IMG/VR virus record: IMGVR_UViG_3300017917_001373
Coordinates: 1 to 31,830 of that record
Source: a virus
Direction: 5' to 3' (one strand)
Length of the DNA stretch: 31,830 nucleotides
The position numbers were made by a program, and so were the translations under genes. Below, in pieces: positions 13,932 through 29,580 of this stretch. Positions within the stretch are counted from its first letter, which is position 1, and the number at the start of each line of letters is the position of its first letter. Under the pieces are notes generated by a model. It was not told the DNA's origin and did no database searches. It saw only the letters and a program-made list of their open reading frames with translations.

Positions 13932-15476
13932 GTGACAGATACCGTTGATCTCAAATCGAGGCAACGCGATTATGCCGTATTCCTGCCTGCCATAAGCACG
14001 TTCTACTCAACGTTCATTGGCAGGCAGAGATCGTCTAATTACGTTGAACCTTCTAGGATACCTGCAACTCTCACCAATGGCGTGGAGAGCTTGAACTTCC
14101 TGGATCCTAACAAGACAATCTTCTACTATCCCTGGGCATTGTACTCAGCAGGACACGCCGTGCTTGACTTAAACAAGCATGCGCCCAAAGAGGATCTGTT
14201 CAGGCAGCGTCCTCGCAACGGCGACAGCTTGATACTGGGCGACTCGGGTGGGTTCCAGATCGGCAAGGGCGTGTGGGAAGGCGATTGGAAGGATCCTAGC
14301 TGTCCCAAGGCACAGGAAAAGCGTGAGCTAGTGCTCAAGTGGATGGACGGGCTCATGGACTATGGCATGATCCTCGATATTCCTGCATGGGTGGCACGTA
14401 GTCCCAAGGGACAGAAGGCCACTGGCATCTCTAGCTATGCAGAAGCAGTTGCCGCTACTGAGATCAACAACGACTACTTCATGCGCAACAGATCTGGTGC
14501 ATGCAAGTTCCTCAACGTCTTGCAGGGCGAAACCCATGCAGAAGCCGAGGACTGGTACCAGAAGATGAAGAAATACTGCGATCCCAAGCAGTACCCAGGT
14601 ACTCACTTCAACGGTTGGTCAATGGGTGGCCAGAACATGTGTGACGTACACTTGGTGCTCAAGCGACTGGTTGCCATGCGCTTTGATGGGCTATTGGAAA
14701 AGGGCATACATGATTGGATGCACTTCCTCGGCACGTCAAAGCTTGAATGGGCGATCATGCTGACCGACATCCAACGTGCTGTCCGTAAGTACCACAACGA
14801 GAACTTCACCATCAGCTTTGACTGTGCTAGCCCGTTCCTAGCTAACGCTAACGGATTGATCTATACCTATACCAGGATGTTGGATCGCAGCAAGTGGACC
14901 TACAAGATGGAATCATCTGTGGACGATCGCAAGTATGCAGGTGACACTAGGATGTTGGGCGATGTCTTGCGCGATGACAAGATCGTAGAAGACTTCGAGG
15001 ATGGCCCAGTCAGCAAGCTGCTCAAGTGCAACGACATCTGCATCTACAAGCCAGGTGATGTCAACAAGATTGGCAAGGTAGGCAAGACCAGCTGGGATAG
15101 CTTCAGCTATGCTCTGCAGATGGCACATAATACATGGGCGCACATCAATGCAGTACAGCGAGCCAACGATGTCTATGACACGGGCATAGTTCCAGGCATG
15201 CTGGTAGATGAGCGTTTTGATCGCATCATGTTCCGTGACATCGTGGAAGAGATCTTCTCTACCAGCGATCGAGCCAAGGCAGAAGCAGCCATAGAGAAGT
15301 GGGACAAGTTCTATCTGCGCATAATTGGAACACGCGGTGCAACTGGCAAGAAGACCATCAATGCCAAGACTGCGTTCAATGCCATGTTTGATGTTCCAAA
15401 TATCATCGCAGAAGAGGTTGACGAAACGCTCGATGAAGCTAAGCTAGAGCAACTAGAGGACCAAACGGATGATTAA
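13932..15476 (+). CDS. dpdA: DpdA-type DNA 7-deazaguanine transglycosylase
   Basis: A 514-residue TGT-superfamily enzyme. GDSGGFQ (103-109) carries the catalytic D104. SFDCASPFLANANG (295-308) matches the tRNA-guanine transglycosylase nucleophile motif 'FDCVLPTRNARNG', with D297. FLNVLQGE (193-200) and GWSMGGQN (228-235) match the substrate-pocket loops. The C-terminal CxCxxC zinc site of tRNA transglycosylases is absent, which favours the DNA-acting DpdA family. These enzymes swap guanine in DNA for a 7-deazaguanine after replication, protecting phage DNA from restriction. The start is GTG 13932 with AAGGA (13921-13925). FolE, QueD and QueE downstream supply the base. Confidence 0.85.
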   Translation: MTDTVDLKSRQRDYAVFLPAISTFYSTFIGRQRSSNYVEPSRIPATLTNGVESLNFLDPNKTIFYYPWALYSAGHAVLDLNKHAPKEDLFRQRPRNGDSLILGDSGGFQIGKGVWEGDWKDPSCPKAQEKRELVLKWMDGLMDYGMILDIPAWVARSPKGQKATGISSYAEAVAATEINNDYFMRNRSGACKFLNVLQGETHAEAEDWYQKMKKYCDPKQYPGTHFNGWSMGGQNMCDVHLVLKRLVAMRFDGLLEKGIHDWMHFLGTSKLEWAIMLTDIQRAVRKYHNENFTISFDCASPFLANANGLIYTYTRMLDRSKWTYKMESSVDDRKYAGDTRMLGDVLRDDKIVEDFEDGPVSKLLKCNDICIYKPGDVNKIGKVGKTSWDSFSYALQMAHNTWAHINAVQRANDVYDTGIVPGMLVDERFDRIMFRDIVEEIFSTSDRAKAEAAIEKWDKFYLRIIGTRGATGKKTINAKTAFNAMFDVPNIIAEEVDETLDEAKLEQLEDQTDD

Positions 15477-16904: not shown

Positions 16905-17199
16905 CGACTCTATAGAGATCATTGAGGTCCAGCCCCGAGCGTTTGGGGCTGGCCTTCGTTTGCCATTAGCTGGGAACAGTGGCACAGGGTATCTCTGGGG
17001 CAGGCAGACCAAGATCATGGAATTGACCAAGGCATACCTGACCAACGTGTGTGGTCTCAAAGTAAACGTGGATTTTGAATTTGACGTTGACTTCTACAGC
17101 AATTTTGATCCAATAGTTAAGTTTACTCCCGAGCACGATTCTGTTAAAAGTATGTTGATACTATATTGGAGCAGCCTAGATGACAGTTTACTTGGTTGA
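16882..17199 (+). CDS. Hypothetical protein, start uncertain
   Basis: A frame of 105 residues from ATG 16882. The C-terminal 60 residues (from MELTKAYLTNVCGLKVNVDF) look like a normal acidic alpha/beta protein and could instead be the whole gene from ATG 17017. The longer version translates through a strong GC-rich hairpin (16929-16952). The frame also extends without a stop to an earlier ATG at 16732, but that part has an abnormal Thr, Ser and Arg composition and overlaps the previous gene. The end overlaps the glycosyltransferase start by 20 bases. The function is unknown. Confidence 0.5.
   Translation: MSISDSPNDSIEIIEVQPRAFGAGLRLPLAGNSGTGYLWGRQTKIMELTKAYLTNVCGLKVNVDFEFDVDFYSNFDPIVKFTPEHDSVKSMLILYWSSLDDSLLG
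16929..16952 (+). terminator. Strong GC-rich hairpin, possible terminator
   Basis: CCAGCCCC (16929-16936) and GGGGCTGG (16945-16952) form a perfect 8-bp stem with an 8-base loop. AGG and CCT flanks add further pairs around one bulged base. It is followed by CCTTCGTTTG, a weak U-rich run. It lies 25 bases after the stop of the 68-aa gene, where a terminator would be expected, but also inside the longer reading of the next gene. Confidence 0.5.
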
Positions 17200-18298
17200 T
17201 ATTGAAGCAGTAGACACTCGCTATACCAAACAGTGGAAGGAACACTTACCCAAGCAGATGAGGGCTGCTGGACTTGACGTCATTGTAATTACGGGCGGCG
17301 AGGTACCACAGGCTACCACTCCTGGTGCGTTCCTTAACTTCGCAGGCACCAACAACTACAAGAGCCAACAGATGTTAGAGATATCGCGCATGTTTGCCAT
17401 GGGAGATATCAAGGATGGTGATTACTTCCTGTACACAGATGCTTGGAACCCCACGGTGATCCAGCTCAAGTACATGGCAGAGCTGCTGGGCGTCAAGATC
17501 AAGATCGGTGGCATGTGGCATGCTGGTAGCTATGATCCCCAGGACTTCCTCGGTAGATTGATTGGCGATGTGCCGTGGGTGCGCAACGCAGAAGCTAGCA
17601 TGTTCTACTGCTATGATGACAACTTCTTTGCCACTCGCTTCCATAGCAACATGTTGCTTCGCGAACTGCTGGGCCAAGATGTGCTGTTCTGCGAGGACGA
17701 GACAGAAGAATGGTGTGGACCCAAGCATGCAGACCAACACAGGATCTCAATCGTTGGTTGGCCCATGGAATACCTCAAGGATGTGATGGCACCATATGCT
17801 AACACGCCCAAGAAGAAGAAGATCATATTCCCACACAGGCTTGCACCAGAGAAGCAGGTAGAGATCTTCCGTGACCTAGCTAAAGAGATGCCCGAGTATG
17901 AATGGTTCGTTGCGCAGGATCAGACGCTGACCAAGCAGGAATACCACACGCATCTAGCCGAGAGCAAGCTCATGTTCTCAGCCAACCTGCAGGAAACGCT
18001 AGGCATCTCAGCTTATGAAGCAGCACTAGTTGGTTGCTTGCCTGTCTTGCCCTCGAGATTGAGCTATACTGAGATGTGGGACTTCGATGGATTCTATCCC
18101 AGCGAATGGACCAAAGATTGGAAGCAATACCAAAAGCACAAGGACAAGCTGGTCAAGTTCATACGCTTCATGATGGAAGACATCAACTCGGACATCAGCA
18201 AGTGGGCAACCAATGCTGCTGCCAAGACCGGAGAGCAGTTCTTTGATGGCAAGGCTCTATACGATGCCATCAAGGAGAAGACTGATGCTGGAAGATGA
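17180..18298 (+). CDS. GT-B glycosyltransferase (GT4-like)
   Basis: A 372-residue protein. The C-terminal half is a GT4-type donor domain: IIFPHRLAPEKQVEIF (215-230), a middle strand YEWFVAQD, then SANLQETLGISAYEAALVGC (267-286) containing the EX7E motif (E272, E280) that binds the nucleotide-sugar. PVLPS follows as the usual donor loop. The N-terminal half is a Rossmann-like acceptor domain with FLYTDAWNP. No membrane segment is present. It transfers a sugar from an NDP-sugar; the acceptor could be the modified DNA base, as in T4 glucosylation, or a host or virion component. Its location downstream of dpdA makes the DNA idea worth testing. Confidence 0.8.
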   Translation: MTVYLVDIEAVDTRYTKQWKEHLPKQMRAAGLDVIVITGGEVPQATTPGAFLNFAGTNNYKSQQMLEISRMFAMGDIKDGDYFLYTDAWNPTVIQLKYMAELLGVKIKIGGMWHAGSYDPQDFLGRLIGDVPWVRNAEASMFYCYDDNFFATRFHSNMLLRELLGQDVLFCEDETEEWCGPKHADQHRISIVGWPMEYLKDVMAPYANTPKKKKIIFPHRLAPEKQVEIFRDLAKEMPEYEWFVAQDQTLTKQEYHTHLAESKLMFSANLQETLGISAYEAALVGCLPVLPSRLSYTEMWDFDGFYPSEWTKDWKQYQKHKDKLVKFIRFMMEDINSDISKWATNAAAKTGEQFFDGKALYDAIKEKTDAGR

Positions 18299-18860
18299 TG
18301 TTGGCCAAATCGTTGACATAAGATTCAAGCTACGCTCAACGTTCTGCAATCTCTGGCCAAACTGCAAGATCATCGTCAACGATGAAACGCTGTTCGACGG
18401 GCAAGTAGTAGAGAGACTGGATCTAATCAAGCAGTTCACTATCCGTGAGAACAACAGCATCGTCGTTAGCCACTATGGCAAGAGGTTCGGTGAGAACAGG
18501 ATATGGGATACCAAGTCTGCTGGAGATCAGATAGTCGCAGACAGGACTCTGCATGTGGATGACATGTTGATCATGGGCATATCCATGAAGCCGTGGTGGC
18601 ATAAAGGAAGCATGGACATAGAGTCACAGGTACCTAAGAATTCATCTATCATACATTTCTATTTCAATGCTTCGTATTCTCTTAGCTTCACTGCTCCTTT
18701 CTATGATTGGCTGATTGATTCTAGATATGAGGGCTTCAAGGAAGTGGGCCCTATCTGGAAGATGAGCAGCCTAAATACCAAATCAGATGGGTATAGCAGC
18801 AGCATGCTAGAGCTAGAACCTTTGCTAGATAGAATACAGGACACGATCAACAAGCTATGA
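18285..18860 (+). CDS. Conserved hypothetical beta-rich protein
   Basis: A 191-residue protein from ATG 18285, supported by AAGGAG (18272-18277). A longer upstream frame overlaps the glycosyltransferase gene and is unlikely. The pattern is beta-rich: VDIRFKLRSTF, CKIIVNDETLFDGQVVE, NNSIVVSHYGKRF, then DDMLIMGISMKPWW and a C-terminal FYDWLIDSRYEGF. It is reminiscent of carbohydrate-binding or jelly-roll domains, without a specific match. It overlaps the glycosyltransferase end and is coupled to the radical-SAM gene by ATGA, so the three may act together. Confidence 0.65.
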   Translation: MLEDDVGQIVDIRFKLRSTFCNLWPNCKIIVNDETLFDGQVVERLDLIKQFTIRENNSIVVSHYGKRFGENRIWDTKSAGDQIVADRTLHVDDMLIMGISMKPWWHKGSMDIESQVPKNSSIIHFYFNASYSLSFTAPFYDWLIDSRYEGFKEVGPIWKMSSLNTKSDGYSSSMLELEPLLDRIQDTINKL

Positions 18861-20311
18861 CCAAGACATTGGTATTAACGCCTCCGTTCTTAGAATCATT
18901 CAGGCCGCCTATCTCAGGAGCGATCATATGCGCAGTGGCTAAGTCTTCAGGGCATGATGTCACTGCTTGGGATCCTAACATCAAGCTATTCAACAAGGTT
19001 GGTGGAGACAAGTTCTACGAGCTGATGTTGCAGTTTAACGGCTTGCAAGATCGCACTGACGAAAATAACAAGCTAGTGAACGAGTTCCTCGAGAACTATG
19101 ATTACTCTGGTTATGATTACATACTGATCAGCATATTCAGCCAATATGAGATTGAATGTTCTAAGATCATACTAGACATAATCAAGCGTAGGAACATCAA
19201 GTCAACCGTCATACTTGGTGGTTCTGGTGTTGAGCTCAATTTTAACACTGGGCACGATGAAAAGTTTGGGCAGTCCATGCTCAATCAAGGGCTATGCGAT
19301 CACTATGTGGTAGGTGAAGGTGAAGTTGCTCTCAGCGAGATATTCAATGGTAACACTAACTATCACGGCGTGAATGGTAACCAACCAAAGCAGATTGACG
19401 AGCTTGATACTCTACCGTTTCCAAACTACGACTTCTATGATCGAAGCGAATACAATTACATTGATCCGGACATGCCTGATCTGTTCGTCTATGGCAGCAG
19501 AGGGTGCGTTCGCCGTTGCAGCTTCTGTGACGTTGCGCATTACTGGCCCTTGTATAGGTATCGCAGCGGCAAGAACATCGCTGAAGAATTGCTGGGCTAT
19601 TGGGAGAAGTATGGCGTCAAGCATTTCTTCTTCACTGATAGCTTGATGAATGGTAGCCTCAAGGCTTATCGAGAGCTGCACGAAACGTTGGCCAAGAAGC
19701 AAGGCTTGCCCAAGCTACGCATATCCGGTTATGCCATAATCAGACCTAAGAACCAACACCCTAAGGAACTGTTTGACATGATGCAGAACACGGGTCACCA
19801 CCTGTGGAGCATTGGCATTGAACATGGTAGCGATGCCATGCGACTGGACATGAAGAAGAAGTTTACCAACGACGACATTGATTGGCATCTCGAGCAGAGC
19901 GAACGCATTGGATTACAAAACAATTGGTTGCTTATGCCAACTTGGGTGAACGAGACGCAGAAACATCATCAAGAATACTTGGACATGTTCGTGCGCTGGC
20001 GCAGATACGTAGCCAACGGTGTGATCACTAGCGTGACCATCGCACCGGCTCTTGCTGCATTAAACAATACTCCATTGATGTCAGAGTCGCACATCGACTT
20101 CTATAATACCGACAGCAACGTTCTGCGGGAAATGCTTTGGATGAACGAGAAGAATCCAACCTTGACCGTACAAGAACGGCATCGCAGGACATTGGAAATC
20201 TACAAGCAGGCATTGAGATACAAGTGGCCTGTCAACGAAGCCCAAAGGAAGCTGCTGGCGGTTGAAAGCATAGTCAAGCAAACAATAAACTTGACTAGAC
20301 GATCTAAATAA
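18857..20311 (+). CDS. B12-binding-type radical SAM protein
   Basis: A 484-residue protein with the architecture of cobalamin-dependent radical SAM enzymes. Residues 1-165 form a Rossmann-like domain (LVLTPPFLESFRPPISGAII, YDYILISIFSQYE, STVILGGSGVE, HYVVGEGEVALSEI). GSRGCVRRCSFCDV follows, with C217, C221 and C224 (CxxxCxxC). The TIM barrel continues with HFFFTDSLMNG and IGIEHGSD. The DxHxxG signature for base-off cobalamin is not visible, so it may not bind B12 in the usual way. Family members methylate or rearrange unactivated carbons. The substrate is unknown; position between the glycosyltransferase and folE suggests a nucleobase or sugar decoration. Confidence 0.85.
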   Translation: MTKTLVLTPPFLESFRPPISGAIICAVAKSSGHDVTAWDPNIKLFNKVGGDKFYELMLQFNGLQDRTDENNKLVNEFLENYDYSGYDYILISIFSQYEIECSKIILDIIKRRNIKSTVILGGSGVELNFNTGHDEKFGQSMLNQGLCDHYVVGEGEVALSEIFNGNTNYHGVNGNQPKQIDELDTLPFPNYDFYDRSEYNYIDPDMPDLFVYGSRGCVRRCSFCDVAHYWPLYRYRSGKNIAEELLGYWEKYGVKHFFFTDSLMNGSLKAYRELHETLAKKQGLPKLRISGYAIIRPKNQHPKELFDMMQNTGHHLWSIGIEHGSDAMRLDMKKKFTNDDIDWHLEQSERIGLQNNWLLMPTWVNETQKHHQEYLDMFVRWRRYVANGVITSVTIAPALAALNNTPLMSESHIDFYNTDSNVLREMLWMNEKNPTLTVQERHRRTLEIYKQALRYKWPVNEAQRKLLAVESIVKQTINLTRRSK

Positions 20312-20315: not shown

Positions 20316-20363
20316 AGAATGCATAATGAAATCGCAATCCACTGCGTTAACATCGGAGATAAA

Positions 20364-21038
20364 ATGAGCATTTCAAACAAGATCAAGCAACGCATCGAAC
20401 ACGCAGGTGCTCGATTCCACTCAAACGACAACATTGCTGAGTTCGTCAACGAGGACGAGATCGAGCAGTTGGTCGATGAGGTAGCTGCGAAGTTCCAAGG
20501 CGTTCTTGAATCGCTGGTCATCGACACCAATCATGATCACAACACACAGGACACAGCCAGGCGCGTGGCCAAGATGTTCGTCAAGGAGACGTTCTCTGGA
20601 CGCTATCGTCCTGTGCCCAAGGTAACTGCTTTCCCTAACATGGGGTACAAGAGCCTGTACACTACAGGCCCAATCTCTATTCGCTCAACCTGCGCACACC
20701 ACTTCCAGAACATCGTGGGCCGCTGCTGGGTTGGCATCGTTCCTGAGGATGAGGTTATTGGTCTTTCAAAGTTTAACCGCATCGTGCATCACATCTGTGA
20801 GCGGCCGCAGATCCAGGAAGAGATGACCACGCAGATCGCAGAAGCGTTGAAGAAGTATGCCAAGACTGATAACATCGCAGTCGTGGTCAAGGCTGAACAT
20901 CACTGCATGACCATGCGTGGCGTTCGTGAGCATGAGAGCGACATGACCACTGCTATCATGCTTGGAGCATTCGAGAAGGATCCTGCGCTCAAGAAGGAGT
21001 TCTACGACATCTGCTTGAGCATGAAAGGACATTCATGA
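20364..21038 (+). CDS. folE: GTP cyclohydrolase I (FolE)
   Basis: A 224-residue enzyme that converts GTP to 7,8-dihydroneopterin triphosphate, the first step to 7-deazaguanines. The start is ATG 20364 with GGAG 5 bases upstream; an in-frame ATG at 20319 lacks a ribosome site. TQDTARRVAKMF (61-72) is the usual N-terminal signature. STCAHHF gives zinc ligands C110 and H113, and HHCMTMRGVRE gives C181. VIGLSKFNRIV (131-141) and RPQIQEEMTTQIA (147-159) are also family hallmarks. The usual Glu of 'CEHH' is Ala here (CAHH). It supplies QueD downstream, and both feed DpdA. Confidence 0.95.
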   Translation: MSISNKIKQRIEHAGARFHSNDNIAEFVNEDEIEQLVDEVAAKFQGVLESLVIDTNHDHNTQDTARRVAKMFVKETFSGRYRPVPKVTAFPNMGYKSLYTTGPISIRSTCAHHFQNIVGRCWVGIVPEDEVIGLSKFNRIVHHICERPQIQEEMTTQIAEALKKYAKTDNIAVVVKAEHHCMTMRGVREHESDMTTAIMLGAFEKDPALKKEFYDICLSMKGHS

Positions 21039-22228: not shown

Positions 22229-22738
22229 ATGAGCAAGAAGGTCTATTACAACTGGAACGACATCAACCACCAAGTAGCTGAGCTTGCTCATAAGATCATC
22301 GTAGATGATTGGAAGCCTGACTACATCGTGGGCATCGTGCGAGGTGGTGCTACACCCGCTGTCATGCTTAGCCACTTCCTAGGTGTCAAGATGTACACCT
22401 TAGACGTTAGATTGCGTGACAGCGAGGACGGTCCCGAGTCTAATGCATGGATGGCCGAGGACGCTTATGGTTATAACGCAGATCCAGCTAAAATCTTGAT
22501 CGTAGATGACATCAACGATACAGGTGCTACTTTCAACTGGATCAAAGAAGATTGGAAAGCCAGTTGCTTGCCTGACGATCCTAAGTGGGGCGATGTTTGG
22601 CATAACACTGTTAGGTTCGCAGTGCTGACACACAATCTCGCAAGCCCGGCAGATGTTGATTATGCTGCCAAGGAAGTGAACAAAGCAGAAGAGGATTGCT
22701 GGTTGGTCTATCCTTGGGAAGAATGGTGGAAGATATGA
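22229..22738 (+). CDS. Phosphoribosyltransferase-family protein
   Basis: A 169-residue type I phosphoribosyltransferase. ILIVDDINDTGATF (89-102) is the PRPP-binding signature, with the two acidic residues and the 'DTGAT' loop. PDYIVGIVRGGATPAVMLSH (30-49) is the pyrophosphate-binding loop strand. Family members salvage purine bases with PRPP (Gpt, Hpt). Its place between folE and queD suggests it could act on a guanine-like base or recycle released guanine, but a general salvage role or a regulatory PRPP sensor is equally possible. It ends in an ATGA overlap with the next gene. Confidence 0.8.
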   Translation: MSKKVYYNWNDINHQVAELAHKIIVDDWKPDYIVGIVRGGATPAVMLSHFLGVKMYTLDVRLRDSEDGPESNAWMAEDAYGYNADPAKILIVDDINDTGATFNWIKEDWKASCLPDDPKWGDVWHNTVRFAVLTHNLASPADVDYAAKEVNKAEEDCWLVYPWEEWWKI

Positions 22739-23802: not shown

Positions 23803-24303
23803 ATGGCGAACATTAATAGGACTTACAAGTACACATCAACCAAGGAATACCACAATGCGTTTCCTTGTGCTTACAGGCAGTGGCGTGCAGACAGCCATTG
23901 CAATCTCATCCATGGTTACAGCTTCTCGATGAAGTTCTACTTTGGAACTGACGATCTAGACGTGCGCAACTGGGCTGCTGACTACGGTGGCCTCAAGGAG
24001 CTCAAGAAGATCCTCGAGGATCAGTTCGATCATACCCTGCTGGTAGCAGAGGATGATCCCGAGCTTGAAACCTTCAAGCTGCTACAGTCTAAGAAGATGG
24101 CCAAGCTGACCATCCTTCCTAGGTTAGGTTGCGAAGGCCTCGCAGACATGCTCTACAAGTATGTCAACGGCGTCTACATTCCAGACATGTGGGGGCCTAG
24201 CGAAGCTGCAAGGCTCTGGTGCTATCGTGTAGAAGTGCGTGAAACGATCGCTAACATGGCCTTCCGCGAGGGCCACAGGGAGTGGAACGAGGATCTGATT
24301 TGA
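23803..24303 (+). CDS. queD: 6-carboxy-tetrahydropterin synthase (QueD)
   Basis: A 166-residue T-fold enzyme. It converts dihydroneopterin triphosphate to 6-carboxy-tetrahydropterin, the substrate of QueE. IHGYSFSMKFYF (36-47) replaces the usual HGHNY motif, giving H37 and Y39. DYGGLKELKKIL (60-71), FDHTLLVAEDD (75-85) and GCEGLADMLYKY (109-120, C110) are the family's catalytic region. VEVRET follows near residue 143. This 'HGY' form occurs in a bacterial QueD branch as I remember it. AGGAG supports the ATG at 23803. Its end overlaps the first amidinotransferase start by 4 bases. Confidence 0.9.
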   Translation: MANINRTYKYTSTKEYHNAFPCAYRQWRADSHCNLIHGYSFSMKFYFGTDDLDVRNWAADYGGLKELKKILEDQFDHTLLVAEDDPELETFKLLQSKKMAKLTILPRLGCEGLADMLYKYVNGVYIPDMWGPSEAARLWCYRVEVRETIANMAFREGHREWNEDLI

Positions 24304-25475
24304 GCTCTTTGCGTAAATTCAACGTAAAGAACAAGACAGATCGATTGCGCTCTGTTATGTTGGGTACATTCTTTATGCCTGAGGCATTTACAGGCATAAA
24401 GAACCCCCGCATCAGAGAACCACTTATGCAGGTAGCTGATGAAATCAATCGAGATCTAGAACATTTCGAATCCGTGCTCAAGAGAGAAGGTTGCAAGGTC
24501 GTAAGGACCGTGCAGCCCTCTTCTGACATAACAAGCTATGGAACAAACATCAACACCTGGGCACCTCGAAATTGCCACGTGGTGATAGGCGGCCAGCTCG
24601 TGCAACTACAGAACAATGCAAGCGTCACTGATGCATTAGTCGAATATAGCAATGACATCCTCGATCTAGAATCTAGCAATGATGCCTTCTTTGATTCATC
24701 TATGGCTGCTGCTAAAAGCAACTATAATGCAGACAGAGACACCTGGTATTCTCGGAAGAAGTACGAGGTGCTAGAAGGAAGCGATTGGCCAACATACCAC
24801 GATTACGTCACTGGCAACTATGAGGTAGAAGAACCTATCAAGTTAGAGATGCAATCTTTTGCTGATGACATGATGTATTGGACTAACGAGCTTGGACCAA
24901 TAAATGGTCCTAACGTCATGTGCCTTGATGATAAGATAGTAGTTGATGCTAATGAATATTGTGACTACGCTGGTTGGCTAGCTCGAAGCATTGATGACCC
25001 TAGAACAGTCGTGCAAATCACTACCAGAGCAGGACACACCGACGGTGCCTTCATGATACTAGGTAACAACACGATCATCGGCATCAACAACATAATAGAC
25101 TACCAAGCTACCTTTCCAGGCTATCACGTGATTGGTGTTCCTGAGATCGCATACCAAAATCACATACATGAATTCAATCTCATGAAGTCGAAAGTAAATG
25201 GAAAGTGGTGGATACCCGGCGAGGAATACAACCAAGATTTGATAGATTTCGTTGAGCAGGTTTTAAGCGTGTGGGTTGGTAGGGCAGAGGAATCTGTGTT
25301 TGATGTTAACGTCTTGCCGCTTGATAATAAAACTGTATTTGTCAGCAGAGATGATGCTAACATAAGAGAACAGTTGAAGATGAGAGGAATCGATTCTATC
25401 GTCATACCTTGGCGACATCGTTTTTTCATTGACAACGGCTTGCATTGCATAACATTGGACTTAGAAAGAGAATGA
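24300..25475 (+). CDS. Amidinotransferase/arginine-deiminase superfamily protein, paralogue 1
   Basis: About 391 residues from TTG 24300, supported by GAGGAT 7 bases upstream; a GTG at 24282 is an alternative. The start gives MSSLRKF, matching where its paralogue begins. The fold's catalytic triad is visible: GHTDGAFMIL (H246, D248) and GLHCITLDLER (C383). The WAPRN loop (87-91) takes the place of the family's PRD. Members transfer an amidino group from arginine to an amine (GATM, StrB1) or hydrolyse arginine. It is about half identical by eye to the protein at 25662 over its whole length. Sitting between queD and queE, a role in a deazaguanine side chain is a candidate idea, not shown. Confidence 0.8.
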   Translation: MSSLRKFNVKNKTDRLRSVMLGTFFMPEAFTGIKNPRIREPLMQVADEINRDLEHFESVLKREGCKVVRTVQPSSDITSYGTNINTWAPRNCHVVIGGQLVQLQNNASVTDALVEYSNDILDLESSNDAFFDSSMAAAKSNYNADRDTWYSRKKYEVLEGSDWPTYHDYVTGNYEVEEPIKLEMQSFADDMMYWTNELGPINGPNVMCLDDKIVVDANEYCDYAGWLARSIDDPRTVVQITTRAGHTDGAFMILGNNTIIGINNIIDYQATFPGYHVIGVPEIAYQNHIHEFNLMKSKVNGKWWIPGEEYNQDLIDFVEQVLSVWVGRAEESVFDVNVLPLDNKTVFVSRDDANIREQLKMRGIDSIVIPWRHRFFIDNGLHCITLDLERE

Positions 25476-25672
25476 AAGCTAACTATCCAAAAGATCTCGG
25501 TAACAATCGTTGGATCATTGAAGTCAAGGGCAAGGAAGGGTCAGATGAACTCTTCCTTGAACTACCTCCTGACTCATTGAGCCAGATGGGCTGGCATGAG
25601 GGAGACATCATTGAGTGGATCGATCGCAAGGATGGTTCCTGGGAACTCAAGAAAAAGAGCGATGAACAGTAA
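25472..25672 (+). CDS. AbrB/MazE-like small protein
   Basis: A 66-residue protein from ATG 25472 (ATGA overlap with the first amidinotransferase). The last 40 residues, LFLELPPDSLSQMGWHEGDI then IEWIDRKDGSWELKK, follow the swapped-hairpin AbrB pattern 'i.lP.e.l..lGw..GD...w....dG.i.l'. Such proteins bind DNA as antitoxins or regulators, or act as small adaptors. No toxin is adjacent. It overlaps the second paralogue's start by 11 bases. Confidence 0.6.
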   Translation: MKANYPKDLGNNRWIIEVKGKEGSDELFLELPPDSLSQMGWHEGDIIEWIDRKDGSWELKKKSDEQ

Positions 25673-26846
25673 GCCTGGTTCAAGACAATACCATGTAAAC
25701 GATAAGACTGATAGATTGCGATCGGTCATTCTAGGTACTTTCTTCTATCCAGAATACTTCTCACAGATAAAGAATCCTCGAGTGAGAGAACCATTGAAGC
25801 GGGTATCAGAAGAGATCAACAACGACTTGGATCAATTTGAATCCATGCTCAAGGCCGAAGGGTGCCATGTGGTCAGGACCATACAGCCACAGTCTGACAT
25901 AGACTGCTATGCTAATGACATCAACAGTTGGGCACCTCGCAACAACCATGTGGTCATTGGCAATAAGCTAGTACAGCTAGCAACAAATGCCAGCGTGACC
26001 GATGCATTGGTTGAATACGCACCAAGCATGCTCGACCTGTCAAAAGACAATCAAGCATATTTTGAAAAAAGCATGTCAGCAGCAAGAGGTTGCTACAGTG
26101 CAGCCAAGAACGCATGGTATTCTCGGAAGAAGTACGACATGCTAGCGGGAAGCGATTGGCCGACGTTTGAGGATTTCGTGCAGGGCAATTATTCCGTGCC
26201 AGATGCTATAAGAGATGAGCTTGCGCAATGTGAAGATGATCTGTCTTATTGGACGGATGAGATGCGACCACTCAGCGGCCCAAACGTGATGGTGCTGCGT
26301 GATAGGATCATAGTCGATAGCAACGAATACTGTGCTTATGACGAGTGGATCAGTGAGAACGTGATAAACGATCGGCAGATCTCGAAGATAACGACACGGG
26401 CATGGCATACTGATGGGGTCATGGCCATACTTGGAAACGATACCGTGATCGGTGGATTAGAACTGATTGATTATGAATCAATCTTGCCAGGATACCACGT
26501 GATCGATCTACCTGATGAGCCGCCACAATTTAATATACCTGGCTTCCAGAAGATGAAAGAGTGCGTAAATGGTAGATGGTGGATACCTGGCGAGGAGGAA
26601 AATTCCGAACTCATATCCTTCGTTGAACACATGTTGAGCATATGGGTAGGAAACACGTTGGATTCTAGGTTTGGCGTAAACGTCCTTCCATTAGACGCTA
26701 GCACGATCTTCGTAAGCCACGATGATCCTGATATCAAAGCACAGCTCAAAGCTAGAGGCATAGAAACGATCCTAGTGCCATGGCGGCACAGCTTTTTCAT
26801 TGATCACGGATTACATTGCATAACGTTAGACCTAGAACGGAGATGA
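25662..26846 (+). CDS. Amidinotransferase/arginine-deiminase superfamily protein, paralogue 2
   Basis: A 394-residue protein from ATG 25662. The catalytic motifs are kept: WHTDGVMAIL (H249, D251) and GLHCITLDLER (C386), so both copies look active. It shares KTDRLRSV.LGTFF near residue 15, SWAPRN (89-94), YSRKKYDMLAGSDWPT (153-168), WWIPGEE (306-312) and NVLPLD (340-345) with paralogue 1. The upstream frame extends further but overlaps the AbrB-like gene. Codon choice differs between the paralogues, so the duplication is old. The retained catalytic residues in both suggest different substrates or a heteromeric enzyme. Confidence 0.8.
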   Translation: MNSKPGSRQYHVNDKTDRLRSVILGTFFYPEYFSQIKNPRVREPLKRVSEEINNDLDQFESMLKAEGCHVVRTIQPQSDIDCYANDINSWAPRNNHVVIGNKLVQLATNASVTDALVEYAPSMLDLSKDNQAYFEKSMSAARGCYSAAKNAWYSRKKYDMLAGSDWPTFEDFVQGNYSVPDAIRDELAQCEDDLSYWTDEMRPLSGPNVMVLRDRIIVDSNEYCAYDEWISENVINDRQISKITTRAWHTDGVMAILGNDTVIGGLELIDYESILPGYHVIDLPDEPPQFNIPGFQKMKECVNGRWWIPGEEENSELISFVEHMLSIWVGNTLDSRFGVNVLPLDASTIFVSHDDPDIKAQLKARGIETILVPWRHSFFIDHGLHCITLDLERR

Positions 26847-26858
26847 CGAAAGCGCAGC

Positions 26859-27644
26859 ATGAGTGATCATTACTTTAAAAAATTCTATGATGATGTGAGG
26901 GCGAAAGATTGGCCCGACGCGACAAGTTATGCTGATTATCTGAAGATTCCAGGTTGGATTCAGGAAGAATGCATCAGAGATCACGGCTTAGATAAGCGAC
27001 TGCGTGAGATGGAGGATCATCATCATTGGCGCCGAGTTTCAGGTCCAATCATTGGTTTTAAGAAAGCTGATGTGGTATTCCTCCCTGTGTATAAATGCGG
27101 CAGCTCATATTACACCGAGATACTAGAAACGCAGGGTTGGGAAAAAGCCAACATAGCAGATTTAGATTTACAGCGATTGAATGCTATCGGAGTGATCATC
27201 CATCCGTTAACTCGAAGGTTAAAAGGAATCGCAGAAGGCATACATCGCACGTTCAAGCATGATTATGATAAGATCAATCGTTATATGTCGGATCCTGACT
27301 TCCGAAAGTTTATCAGTTCGATCTCGATACTAGATGATCACAGCATACCTTATTCCGTCGCATTTGGAGAAAAGCTTGATCAGATAGATTGGATACCAGC
27401 TGAACTGTTCACTTATGATCAGATAGATTCTCGCATACGCTCTTTCTGCAAAAGATTTGATGTTGACATAGATTTCCCACAAAACTATAATAGGGGAGAA
27501 AGCGGTGCGTCACAACGAATGCTCTACAACACCATTAAAGATGATTGGTTGCATGATCCAAAAGCATTGGTAGAGACTTACATGCTGTTCGCAGACGATT
27601 TGAAATTTTATCATGCATTGCTACGTAAAGTGAAGGATAGTTGA
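26859..27644 (+). CDS. Sulfotransferase-like protein
   Basis: A 261-residue protein. VVFLPVYKCGSSYYTEIL (72-89) resembles the 5'-phosphosulfate loop of sulfotransferases ('vpKcgsTsl'), with K79. VIIHPLTRRLKGIAEGI (112-128) resembles the 3'-phosphate strand and helix ('vvRdP..RllSay'), with Arg at 119-120 but no Arg-Asp pair. The rest is helical. It would use PAPS to sulfate a hydroxyl or amine. It lies 12 bases after the amidinotransferase pair and overlaps queE by one base, so it is part of the same operon. The fold call is by motif only; a degenerate P-loop protein is the alternative. Confidence 0.6.
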   Translation: MSDHYFKKFYDDVRAKDWPDATSYADYLKIPGWIQEECIRDHGLDKRLREMEDHHHWRRVSGPIIGFKKADVVFLPVYKCGSSYYTEILETQGWEKANIADLDLQRLNAIGVIIHPLTRRLKGIAEGIHRTFKHDYDKINRYMSDPDFRKFISSISILDDHSIPYSVAFGEKLDQIDWIPAELFTYDQIDSRIRSFCKRFDVDIDFPQNYNRGESGASQRMLYNTIKDDWLHDPKALVETYMLFADDLKFYHALLRKVKDS

Positions 27645-28492
27645 TGAGCAAGATCAAGATAGCTGAGATTTTCTACAGCTTACAAGGAGAAGGACAGTAT
27701 GTTGGAGTTCCTAGCATTTTCTTACGTACTTTTGGCTGTAATTTTACTTGCAGTGGCTTTGGTATGCCTATGGGCGAGCTTTCGTCTGAAAGACTGGGCG
27801 TTGATCCTAATAAGTTTGATGACTACCGGGATCTTCCTTTGGTTAGCACTGGCTGTGATAGCTACGCTAGTTGGGACGTAAGATTCAAGCACCTGAGTCC
27901 TATGCTAGAGGTCGGCGCCATTATCGAGCGTTTCAAGGAACTGTTGCCTAACGGTACCTTTGGTCGAGACAAGCATCTGATCATCACGGGCGGAGAACCT
28001 TTGCTGGGATGGCAGCGTAGCTATCCAGAACTGATCGACGAGTGCATCAGGATGGGGCTCACGCATCTCACTTTCGAGACCAACGGCACCCAGATGCTGA
28101 GCGAAGAGTTTACCAAGTACCTGAATGACATTGCTTGCCATCAGGGCGTGGAGATAACGTTCTCCATATCAGCCAAGCTACCTTGCAGCGGAGAGAAGTG
28201 GGAAGATGCAATACGACCTGATGTTGTTAAACATTATTGCGATATACATGGCCATCGTAGTTATTTCAAGTTTGTTGTATCTACGCAGCAGGATGTACTC
28301 GACGCACACCGTGCTGTGGATGAGTATGGAAGTGCTGGCATCAGCATCCCTGTTTACCTTATGCCTGTGGGCGGTGTTAACAGCGTATATGAGCTGAACG
28401 AGAGACAGGTAGCTGACTATTGCAGGGACAACGGCTTGCGCTTCTCGCCGCGCATACAGGTTCCGCTATATAAGAATGCATGGGGTACGTGA
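27644..28492 (+). CDS. queE: 7-carboxy-7-deazaguanine synthase (QueE)
   Basis: A 282-residue radical-SAM enzyme that contracts 6-carboxy-tetrahydropterin to 7-carboxy-7-deazaguanine. The start KIAEIFYSLQGEGQYVG (4-20) is the family hallmark. Cluster cysteines are C32 and C36 (GCNFTC) and probably C71 (STGCDSY), so the third ligand is separated by an insertion of about 35 residues instead of the usual CxxxCxxC. IITGGEPLL (113-121) binds SAM and FETNGTQ is the next strand. It overlaps the sulfotransferase-like stop by one base. The in-frame TTG at 27641 is less likely as start. Confidence 0.92.
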   Translation: MSKIKIAEIFYSLQGEGQYVGVPSIFLRTFGCNFTCSGFGMPMGELSSERLGVDPNKFDDYRDLPLVSTGCDSYASWDVRFKHLSPMLEVGAIIERFKELLPNGTFGRDKHLIITGGEPLLGWQRSYPELIDECIRMGLTHLTFETNGTQMLSEEFTKYLNDIACHQGVEITFSISAKLPCSGEKWEDAIRPDVVKHYCDIHGHRSYFKFVVSTQQDVLDAHRAVDEYGSAGISIPVYLMPVGGVNSVYELNERQVADYCRDNGLRFSPRIQVPLYKNAWGT

Positions 28493-28516: not shown

Positions 28517-28900
28517 ATGTTTGACTGGTTCAAGAAGAAGCCAGAGCCTGCTAAGGAAGTTAAGGAAGCTAAACCTAGCAAGTCCAAGAAGACCGAAAAG
28601 GAACTAGCTACTGAGCGCAATGAGCCTTATGTAGCCATCCTCAAGGTTGATCTCGATCCCACCAATCCACGCTACGGCAGCTTTGAGCTAGATTGGAACC
28701 AACCTTTCATCCTCAAGCTAGTCCAGAGTGGATACAGGGGAGACAAGGAAGAAGACATGGTGGACCAGTGGTTCCAGGATGTCTGCCGCCACGTGGTGCT
28801 AGAGACCTACGAGCAAGAACAGGCCAATCTAGCCAAGGGCGATAATGTGCGTTACATCAACCGAAAGAACACAGGCAACGGTCGTTCCGAAGTGTCATGA
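28517..28900 (+). CDS. Conserved hypothetical protein with Lys-rich N-terminus
   Basis: A 127-residue protein from ATG 28517, with GGAG (28505-28508) 8 bases upstream; an upstream in-frame ATG at 28493 lacks a ribosome site. The first 40 residues are a charged Lys/Glu-rich tail. The rest is an acidic alpha/beta core (PYVAILKVDLDPTNPRYGSF, ELDWNQPFILKLVQSGYRGD, then a DQWFQDVCRHVVLETYEQEQ helix). No motif is recognised. It is linked to the next gene by ATGA. Confidence 0.65.
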   Translation: MFDWFKKKPEPAKEVKEAKPSKSKKTEKELATERNEPYVAILKVDLDPTNPRYGSFELDWNQPFILKLVQSGYRGDKEEDMVDQWFQDVCRHVVLETYEQEQANLAKGDNVRYINRKNTGNGRSEVS

Positions 28901-29580
28901 TACTCTACGTCAATGGTGATGAACACACAGCCGCAGCTAAGGCAGTGAACTCTCACTCATTTGCGAACGATGACATCAGCTTCGTGGCACAGGGCAGGAG
29001 ACCTCATCCTGATAACCTTGCTATCAGCTGGGGCATGACCTTGAGCAAGCCGCTAGGACTAGGCTTCAAATGTGCTGCTGAGTCAGAATCGAGCAACGAT
29101 AGGATCATACGGACGACCAATCAATTCATCGATAGCTTGAAGTTCCTTGGCAACCCATACACTGTCGTGGTCATAGGTTGGTCTAGATGGGAGAGGGAAG
29201 AATGGTATGACGAAGATACCAAGGAATGGTATCAGATATCTCCTACTAGCACTGACTGGCCTGACAAGTGGAAGGTGCAGCACAAGCAATGGAAGACCAA
29301 GCTGAATCAAGCTGCTAAGGAAGCAGAAGCACATGGCAAGATATATGACCTGCATCTAAAGCTACAGGAGAGAAAAATCCCTCACTTGTTCTTCAACGCC
29401 CAACAGCACTTCAGCAATAAGCATCAGGCTGATTGGAATGGTTGCTATCTCGAACCATACGATCCAACTCTTTCTTACGCAGCATGGACCAAGCTACACA
29501 ACCTCACAGGCACAGACGCCCAAAGAAGATGGGCCGACATCCTGTTTTCTAGATTGACACCTTTGTTAAACAACGTATAG
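28897..29580 (+). CDS. SGNH-hydrolase-like protein (DUF6071-type)
   Basis: A 227-residue protein. It starts ILYVNGDEHTAAAKAV, the position of the 'GDSxT' block I of SGNH/GDSL hydrolases, but the nucleophilic Ser is Glu. A strand-helix YTVVVIGWSRWEREEW (153 bases later in the gene) parallels block III, and the C-terminal part has further His and Trp residues. Domain length and layout fit the DUF6071-type phage proteins as I remember them. With Ser missing it may be inactive as an esterase or use another chemistry. Confidence 0.5.
   Translation: MILYVNGDEHTAAAKAVNSHSFANDDISFVAQGRRPHPDNLAISWGMTLSKPLGLGFKCAAESESSNDRIIRTTNQFIDSLKFLGNPYTVVVIGWSRWEREEWYDEDTKEWYQISPTSTDWPDKWKVQHKQWKTKLNQAAKEAEAHGKIYDLHLKLQERKIPHLFFNAQQHFSNKHQADWNGCYLEPYDPTLSYAAWTKLHNLTGTDAQRRWADILFSRLTPLLNNV

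Follow-up and report, generated by a model that had tools for sequence, protein, structure and literature searches.

We analysed two paralogous genes that lie between queD and queE in a deazaguanine-type cluster of a 31,830-base viral record, IMGVR_UViG_3300017917_001373 (the whole stretch, here called the window). Both genes, copy 1 (24300..25475, + strand) and copy 2 (25662..26846, +), encode proteins of amidinotransferase fold and belong to class A of a phage family that is real and, as far as the literature we searched shows, undescribed; that literature held no functional study of the family. The window is an unusual, duplicated and relocated instance of this family. The reading that we tentatively prefer, as the most probable of those considered, is that a class A pair was duplicated and carried into the que cluster, where copy 1 would transfer an amidino group onto the amine of a small molecule or sugar for decoration. 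An earlier note on this DNA had instead proposed that the pair equips the deazaguanine base with a guanidino or amidine group. Amine or sugar tailoring is favoured over such base synthesis, and the sugar could be destined for DNA, the virion, or elsewhere.

The assignment of both genes to the amidinotransferases was borne out by profile and structure comparisons. In the PDB, the class A profile matched HsvA (6.7e-10), GATM (1.6e-9), and SxtG (1e-7) and also reached StrB1; the profile of a second phage class, class B, matched GATM (3e-15) over most of its length. The AlphaFold model of copy 1, with a predicted local distance difference test score (pLDDT) of 82 and a predicted template modelling score (pTM) of 0.82, has the alpha/beta propeller fold of the guanidino-modifying superfamily. 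Its structural Z-scores were highest for StrB1 (21.9), HsvA (21.4), and GATM (21.2), lower for arginine deiminases (about 19), and lower again for peptidyl-arginine deiminases (PADs; about 15), so that the comparison with GATM, StrB1, and arginine deiminase suggested in the earlier note ranks the transferases first. Judged from this model and these profiles, the family assignment is better than chance.

StrB1 (inosamine-phosphate amidinotransferase), GATM (arginine:glycine amidinotransferase), HsvA, and SxtG share the whole-chain fold (Z 20.6–21.9), the His, the Asp, and the nucleophilic Cys with the phage proteins, with profile matches of 6.7e-10 to 0.007. Unlike these enzymes, the phage copies have Asp254, Asp170, and Arg322 (GATM numbering) replaced and carry an extra WP module, and FDVN and RH(R/K)-F-D motifs stand in place of the motifs of GATM. 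Pfam and NCBIfam named no family for either window copy, and PHROGs returned phrog_25854 alone, a family of unknown function. Two degenerate-peptide pattern scans of 84,980 cellular genomes, which distant kin could escape, found no class A or class B relatives, and the window genes apparently belong to a large, phage-only branch of the superfamily. In a tree of these proteins, class A forms one clade (100/99) and the two window copies are sisters (100/100). They are 59% identical, and the branch leading to copy 2 is about four times as long as that leading to copy 1 (0.67 versus 0.17).

The catalytic triad of GATM is Asp254-His303-Cys407 (PMC2844391, PMC3684758). Equivalents of Cys407 and His303/Asp305 are present in both copies, as H246/D248/C383 in copy 1 and H249/D251/C386 in copy 2, in agreement with the residues named in the earlier note. 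This numbering runs from starts at 24300 and 25662; alternative starts are a GTG at 24282 for copy 1 and an ATG at 25596 for copy 2. The His, Asp, and Cys are invariant across 20 class A and 72 class B proteins, and copy 1 also keeps D335 and R372/R374. In a hidden Markov model (HMM) alignment, Asp254 of GATM corresponds to Asn202 in copy 1 and to Ser in copy 2, with residue 205 of copy 1 (GPN) at the Asp257 position. Other class A proteins have Q, E, C, L, or A at the Asp254 position, and this Asp is lost nearly throughout the same 20 class A and 72 class B proteins. Asp170 of GATM, in a PRD motif, is Asn in both copies (PRN; N91 in copy 1) and is retained in six other class A proteins and 72/72 class B proteins, and Arg322 is replaced by Ile or Leu in the window copies. 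The FDVN motif contains an Asp that is invariant in the same comparison of 20 other class A with 72 class B proteins, and this residue may partly stand in for the lost Asp254.

Copy 2 has FGVN for FDVN and RHS for RHR, and the Arg that it has replaced is kept in every other class A protein. Of the 71 invariant class A columns, 12 differ in copy 2 and 4 in copy 1. When 17 full-length relatives were checked against these columns one by one, only the most divergent (L058, with 11 departures) came near copy 2. Judged from residue conservation, copy 1 is probably active, and copy 2, the more diverged of the two, probably has a changed specificity or is impaired. The earlier description of an active-looking pair thus holds for the retained His, Asp, and Cys but not for Asp254 and Asp170 of GATM, nor for the diverged copy 2.

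Class A genes elsewhere occupy a different neighbourhood. The closest homologues adjoin gp46 at 24 of 24 viral loci, lying between gp47 and gp46 wherever the sequence suffices to tell. Many of these loci have SPASM-like radical SAM, SGNH, and sulfotransferase-like genes and several have a B12 radical SAM gene; no QueD, QueE, FolE, or DpdA was found in the fetched flanks of any of the 24. The earlier note had named homologues in phages lacking dpdA and queE as an outcome that would count against its proposal, and this is largely what these loci show. The window is the one case seen of class A genes inside a que cluster. In its nearest relative with a class A gene of its own, G025, DpdA (66%) is clustered with the same glycosyltransferase, a DegT aminotransferase, FolE, and QueE but no amidinotransferase; about 75 kb separate this cluster from the class A gene, which is at gp47/gp46.

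Two further window genes point the same way. Relatives of the B12-binding radical SAM protein (18857..20311, +) occur in gp46 islands that hold class A amidinotransferases, and relatives of a 261-amino-acid protein (26859..27644, +) also occur in gp46-type regions, so a gene set, rather than the pair alone, seems to have moved. The direction of this transfer seems to have been from a gp46 island to the que cluster. Simple arginine metabolism (creatine, ornithine) found no support as a role in any neighbourhood that we read.

The deazaguanine setting itself is supported. FolE (GTP cyclohydrolase I; 20319..21038, +), a QueD-like protein (23803..24303, +), and a QueE-like radical SAM protein (27641..28492, +), components of dpdA-type deazaguanine modification, are all present in the window beside a putative DpdA-like TGT. 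We took the 80 dpdA-like loci nearest to that of the window, picked irrespective of amidinotransferases, and read their fetched flanks; an amidinotransferase was in view at 0/80 of them and in 0/27 complete clusters. Amidinotransferases are therefore not a constant part of dpdA-like clusters but a non-core, optional one. The test of dpdA co-occurrence called for in the earlier note gave a divided answer: none of these 80 loci has an amidinotransferase in view, but 7 of the 8 records of at least 100 kb that hold an amidinotransferase, all eight being of one lineage, carry a dpdA-like gene. The queD–queE interval is variable among relatives and contains glycosyltransferase-like, C-methyltransferase, cupin, GDP-mannose dehydratase-like, radical SAM, and SGNH genes.

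The best lead to function comes from class B, which was found on at least 571 viral contigs, with up to six or more amidinotransferase genes per phage. Among 79 class B loci examined, 17 have que genes, 22 have gp46/gp47, and 40 have neither. The que loci follow an almost constant gene order: DpdA, glycosyltransferase, sugar epimerase, amidinotransferase, DegT-type aminotransferase, FolE, QueD, QueE. We compared clusters in which both the glycosyltransferase and FolE can be seen. DegT occurs in 14/15 with a class B amidinotransferase versus 13/44 without (Fisher p 3e-5), and the epimerase in 15/15 versus 21/44 (Fisher p 1.6e-4), these tests taking related loci as independent with no correction for relatedness.

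In streptomycin biosynthesis, the aminotransferase StrS/StsC acts before StrB1. Class B amidinotransferases in que clusters likewise directly adjoin a DegT/StrS-family aminotransferase; unlike the streptomycin case, the window itself lacks an aminotransferase. The joint presence of epimerase, aminotransferase, amidinotransferase, and glycosyltransferase suggests, by analogy with streptomycin, a guanidino-sugar pathway. Because class B occurs in que clusters and a dpdA-like gene occurs in most of the long records, an indirect, sugar-based link between the amidinotransferases and a modified base is plausible. DegT-family proteins of about 195 amino acids, roughly half the normal length, recur in dpdA-like clusters (L048 10987-11571, L063 11439-12020) and are candidates for a minimal or partnered aminotransferase. 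Another amidinotransferase paralogue (L068 3274-13542; L026 2-6411) lies beside genes for a NodU/TobZ-type carbamoyltransferase, an AMP-ligase, a tryptophan-halogenase-like protein, and a full-length DegT, a region that looks like a natural-product cluster in a phage.

In the mechanism that we propose, the class A genes, duplicated in this phage, would have been brought, with B12 radical SAM and sulfotransferase-like genes of the gp46-island kind, into a dpdA-like/que cluster whose queD–queE interval carries variable cargo. Copy 1 would catalyse Cys-dependent amidino transfer: a guanidino donor (arginine or a related compound) would form an amidino-thioether with Cys383, and His246 and Asp248 would take part. 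The group would then pass to an amine on a small molecule or sugar that serves in decoration; in class B this amine would most likely belong to an amino sugar, the product of the DegT-type aminotransferase encoded next to it. Copy 2 would either have a changed specificity or be impaired. Several points weigh against this reading. With Asp254, Asp170, and Arg322 of GATM not retained, the donor may be something other than arginine, and the proteins may hydrolyse it. Neither a DegT nor an epimerase gene was seen in the window itself, and the acceptor amine is thus not explained locally. The record is a 31.8 kb fragment, and the class B associations are subject to the relatedness of the loci compared.

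A variant of the preferred reading, which we consider possible but less probable, places the target on a virion or host-surface glycan or on a protein rather than on DNA, the que cluster being a mere cargo site. It would account for the 62 of 79 class B loci with no que gene in view and for jumbo phages with six or more paralogues, and C-methyltransferase and carbamoyltransferase genes among the neighbours are consistent with it. It also fits the Synechococcus phage S-SCSM2R, whose annotated 'glycine amidinotransferase' adjoins KdsA/KdsB and glycosyltransferases. This protein and those of marine virus AG-345-D19 are phage-encoded homologues that have the FDVN and RHR motifs in common with the family and are 30-37% identical to the window copies over parts of their length; unlike the window genes, the S-SCSM2R gene is in this Kds/glycosyltransferase region and not with que genes. 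The recurrent order from dpdA through QueE at the class B que loci, however, suggests more than chance cargo.

It is unlikely that the two proteins are instead hydrolases of the same superfamily, similar to arginine or peptidyl-arginine deiminase or to arginine dihydrolase, that deplete arginine or edit protein. The deiminase structures follow closely in the Z-score ranking and the Asp254 and Arg322 equivalents are lost, as such a role would allow; but the best matches in both sequence and structure are the transferases StrB1, HsvA, GATM, and SxtG, and class B in que clusters adjoins an aminotransferase able to supply an acceptor amine.

About as unlikely is a more specific proposal for this phage lineage, in which the GT-B enzyme would attach a sugar to the deazaguanine in DNA. 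Amidinotransferases (those of class B together with epimerase and DegT, and perhaps window class A as well) would then add a guanidino group to that sugar. If true, the DNA would carry a hypermodified deazaguanine with a positively charged guanidino-sugar, derived from 7-carboxy-7-deazaguanine (CDG) and not from preQ0.

Searches of the window and of six long related records (two of about 342-345 kb) turned up neither QueC nor QueF, but these records are possibly incomplete and the hosts may supply the enzymes; ArcS was not searched for. From this gene content, the phage-encoded path appears to end at CDG rather than preQ0, and phage-made preQ0 or preQ1 is thus not in evidence. In phages, dpdA/que 7-deazaguanine DNA modification is known from Enterobacteria phage 9g and Vibrio phage nt-1 (PMC6884629). 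Like those systems, the window clusters FolE, QueD, and QueE with a putative DpdA2-like protein; unlike them, QueC and QueF were not found, the glycosyltransferase is constant, and the amidinotransferase is optional. Records G010, G015, G016, G017, G018, and G025 each have QueE and a DpdA-like gene, most have QueD, and QueC and QueF were not found in them.

That both copies are catalytically dead remnants is improbable: Asp254 is lost, and copy 2 has neither the FDVN Asp nor the RHR Arg, but the loss of Asp254 is family-wide and hence not decay, copy 1 is off at just 4 of the 71 invariant columns, and both reading frames are open and packed tightly in the operon. Least probable of all is the proposal of the earlier note, that an amidino group moves from arginine straight to a 7-deazaguanine base such as preQ1: it draws on the placement of the copies between queD and queE, on a second amidinotransferase, of a different subfamily, placed likewise in L227, and on the dpdA-like genes of the long records, but is opposed by the 24 class A homologues at gp46, by the lack of any amidinotransferase in view at the 80 nearest dpdA-like loci and in the G025 cluster, and by a path that, with QueC and QueF not found, would end at CDG with no amine added to the base. 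No phage amidinotransferase in deazaguanine modification was reported in the literature searched, which left out further phage deazaguanines (Cui et al. 2023).

The DpdA2-like putative DNA-guanine transglycosylase (13932..15476, +) was recognized by its DSGGFQ signature, which is invariant in eight DpdA-like homologues, and by its context, with no hmmsearch match. Its model is poor (pLDDT 48), and a fold comparison ranked TGT first, though weakly (E 0.03); its profile found no TGT in the PDB, and profile searches gave no confirmation. Among isolates, a homologue lies with QueE in phage PA5oct, and one in Vibrio phage 2.275.O has QueF, FolE, and a vitamin-uptake (COG1738) transporter as neighbours. 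Pseudomonas phages of the PA5oct type carry the DpdA-like and QueE genes, and the part of them that was read contained no amidinotransferase. With motif, weak fold ranking, and context as its basis, the DpdA identity is putative. The GT-B type glycosyltransferase (17180..18298, +; EX7E motif by eye) is present in 27/27 of those clusters among loci L078-L157 that show DpdA, FolE, and QueE; its profile matched only WlaC in the PDB, at chance level. Glycosylation of a deazaguanine base in this phage lineage merits testing in itself. In several dpdA-like clusters (L047 8851-9279, L023 7039-7467), the gene after FolE encodes a short HhH-GPD (EndoIII-like) protein, and none was seen in the window.

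These genes belong to a T4-like, aquatic phage, with DNA polymerase B, an RNase H-like exonuclease, and virion genes around the deazaguanine-type cluster. The cluster runs on the + strand from the DpdA-like gene through the glycosyltransferase, a 215-amino-acid protein (18213..18860; a short partner likewise precedes the B12 radical SAM gene in L213 and L028, by eye), the B12 radical SAM protein, FolE, a phosphoribosyltransferase (22229..22738), and QueD, and then through copy 1, a 66-amino-acid open reading frame (25472..25672, containing GWHEGDIIEWIDRKDGSWELKKK), copy 2, the 261-amino-acid protein, QueE, and an SGNH-like protein (28897..29580; DUF6071, weak), the last of which is placed likewise in relatives G010 and G025. 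The genes in the run that starts with QueD and ends with QueE overlap or almost abut, like a single operon. PHROGs matches for QueD (phrog_2389, 7.9e-36; 90% identity to the QueD of G010) and QueE (phrog_2076, 2.4e-49) confirm the placement of the two copies between them. The operon setting stated earlier stands. The copies are not directly adjacent: the 66-amino-acid frame lies in between and overlaps both, copy 1 at its end and copy 2 at its start. The 261-amino-acid gene separates copy 2 from queE.

That third gene links the pair to other phage proteins through the WP module, a stretch of about 35-55 residues with the iterated profile F-Y-x-x-V-K-D-x-S-W-P ... L-P-x-x-I-x-x-E. By iterated HMM, it is inserted in copy 1 (24756..24860, +; KKYEVLEGSDWPTYHDYVTGNYEVEEPIKLEMQSF), in copy 2 (26127..26228, +), and in class B, and it begins the 261-amino-acid protein (26877-27026), where a sulfotransferase-like region, identified by motif only, follows. 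The module also occurs inside SGNH and P-loop-like proteins of related phages. Loci L074, L075, L076, L077, L024, and L038 are examples of its occurrence across amidinotransferases and SGNH, P-loop-like, and sulfotransferase-like proteins. The class A matches are weak singly (2e-11 to 1.5e-3) and emerged only upon iteration, and the alignment is too variable for scanning. The distribution of the module would point to a common partner or carrier. A single-sequence search with the 26859-27644 frame returned no relatives; a full-length one is found in a gp46-type region at L077 775-1581.

Beyond this window, the family is widespread and lacks one accepted catalytic-triad residue, and it can therefore test how the chemistry may be rebuilt. 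The class B genes with epimerase, aminotransferase, and glycosyltransferase in dpdA-like clusters give a testable prediction of a new sugar-bearing DNA base. The 345 kb record G015 has at least six amidinotransferase-fold genes (at 80900, 82034, 86226, 204258, 205930, and 264474), one of which is of a canonical type that keeps the Asp254 position. At 732-1643 (− strand) of the window, among virion genes, lies a radical SAM protein that is distant kin of the SPASM-like ones of the gp46 islands.

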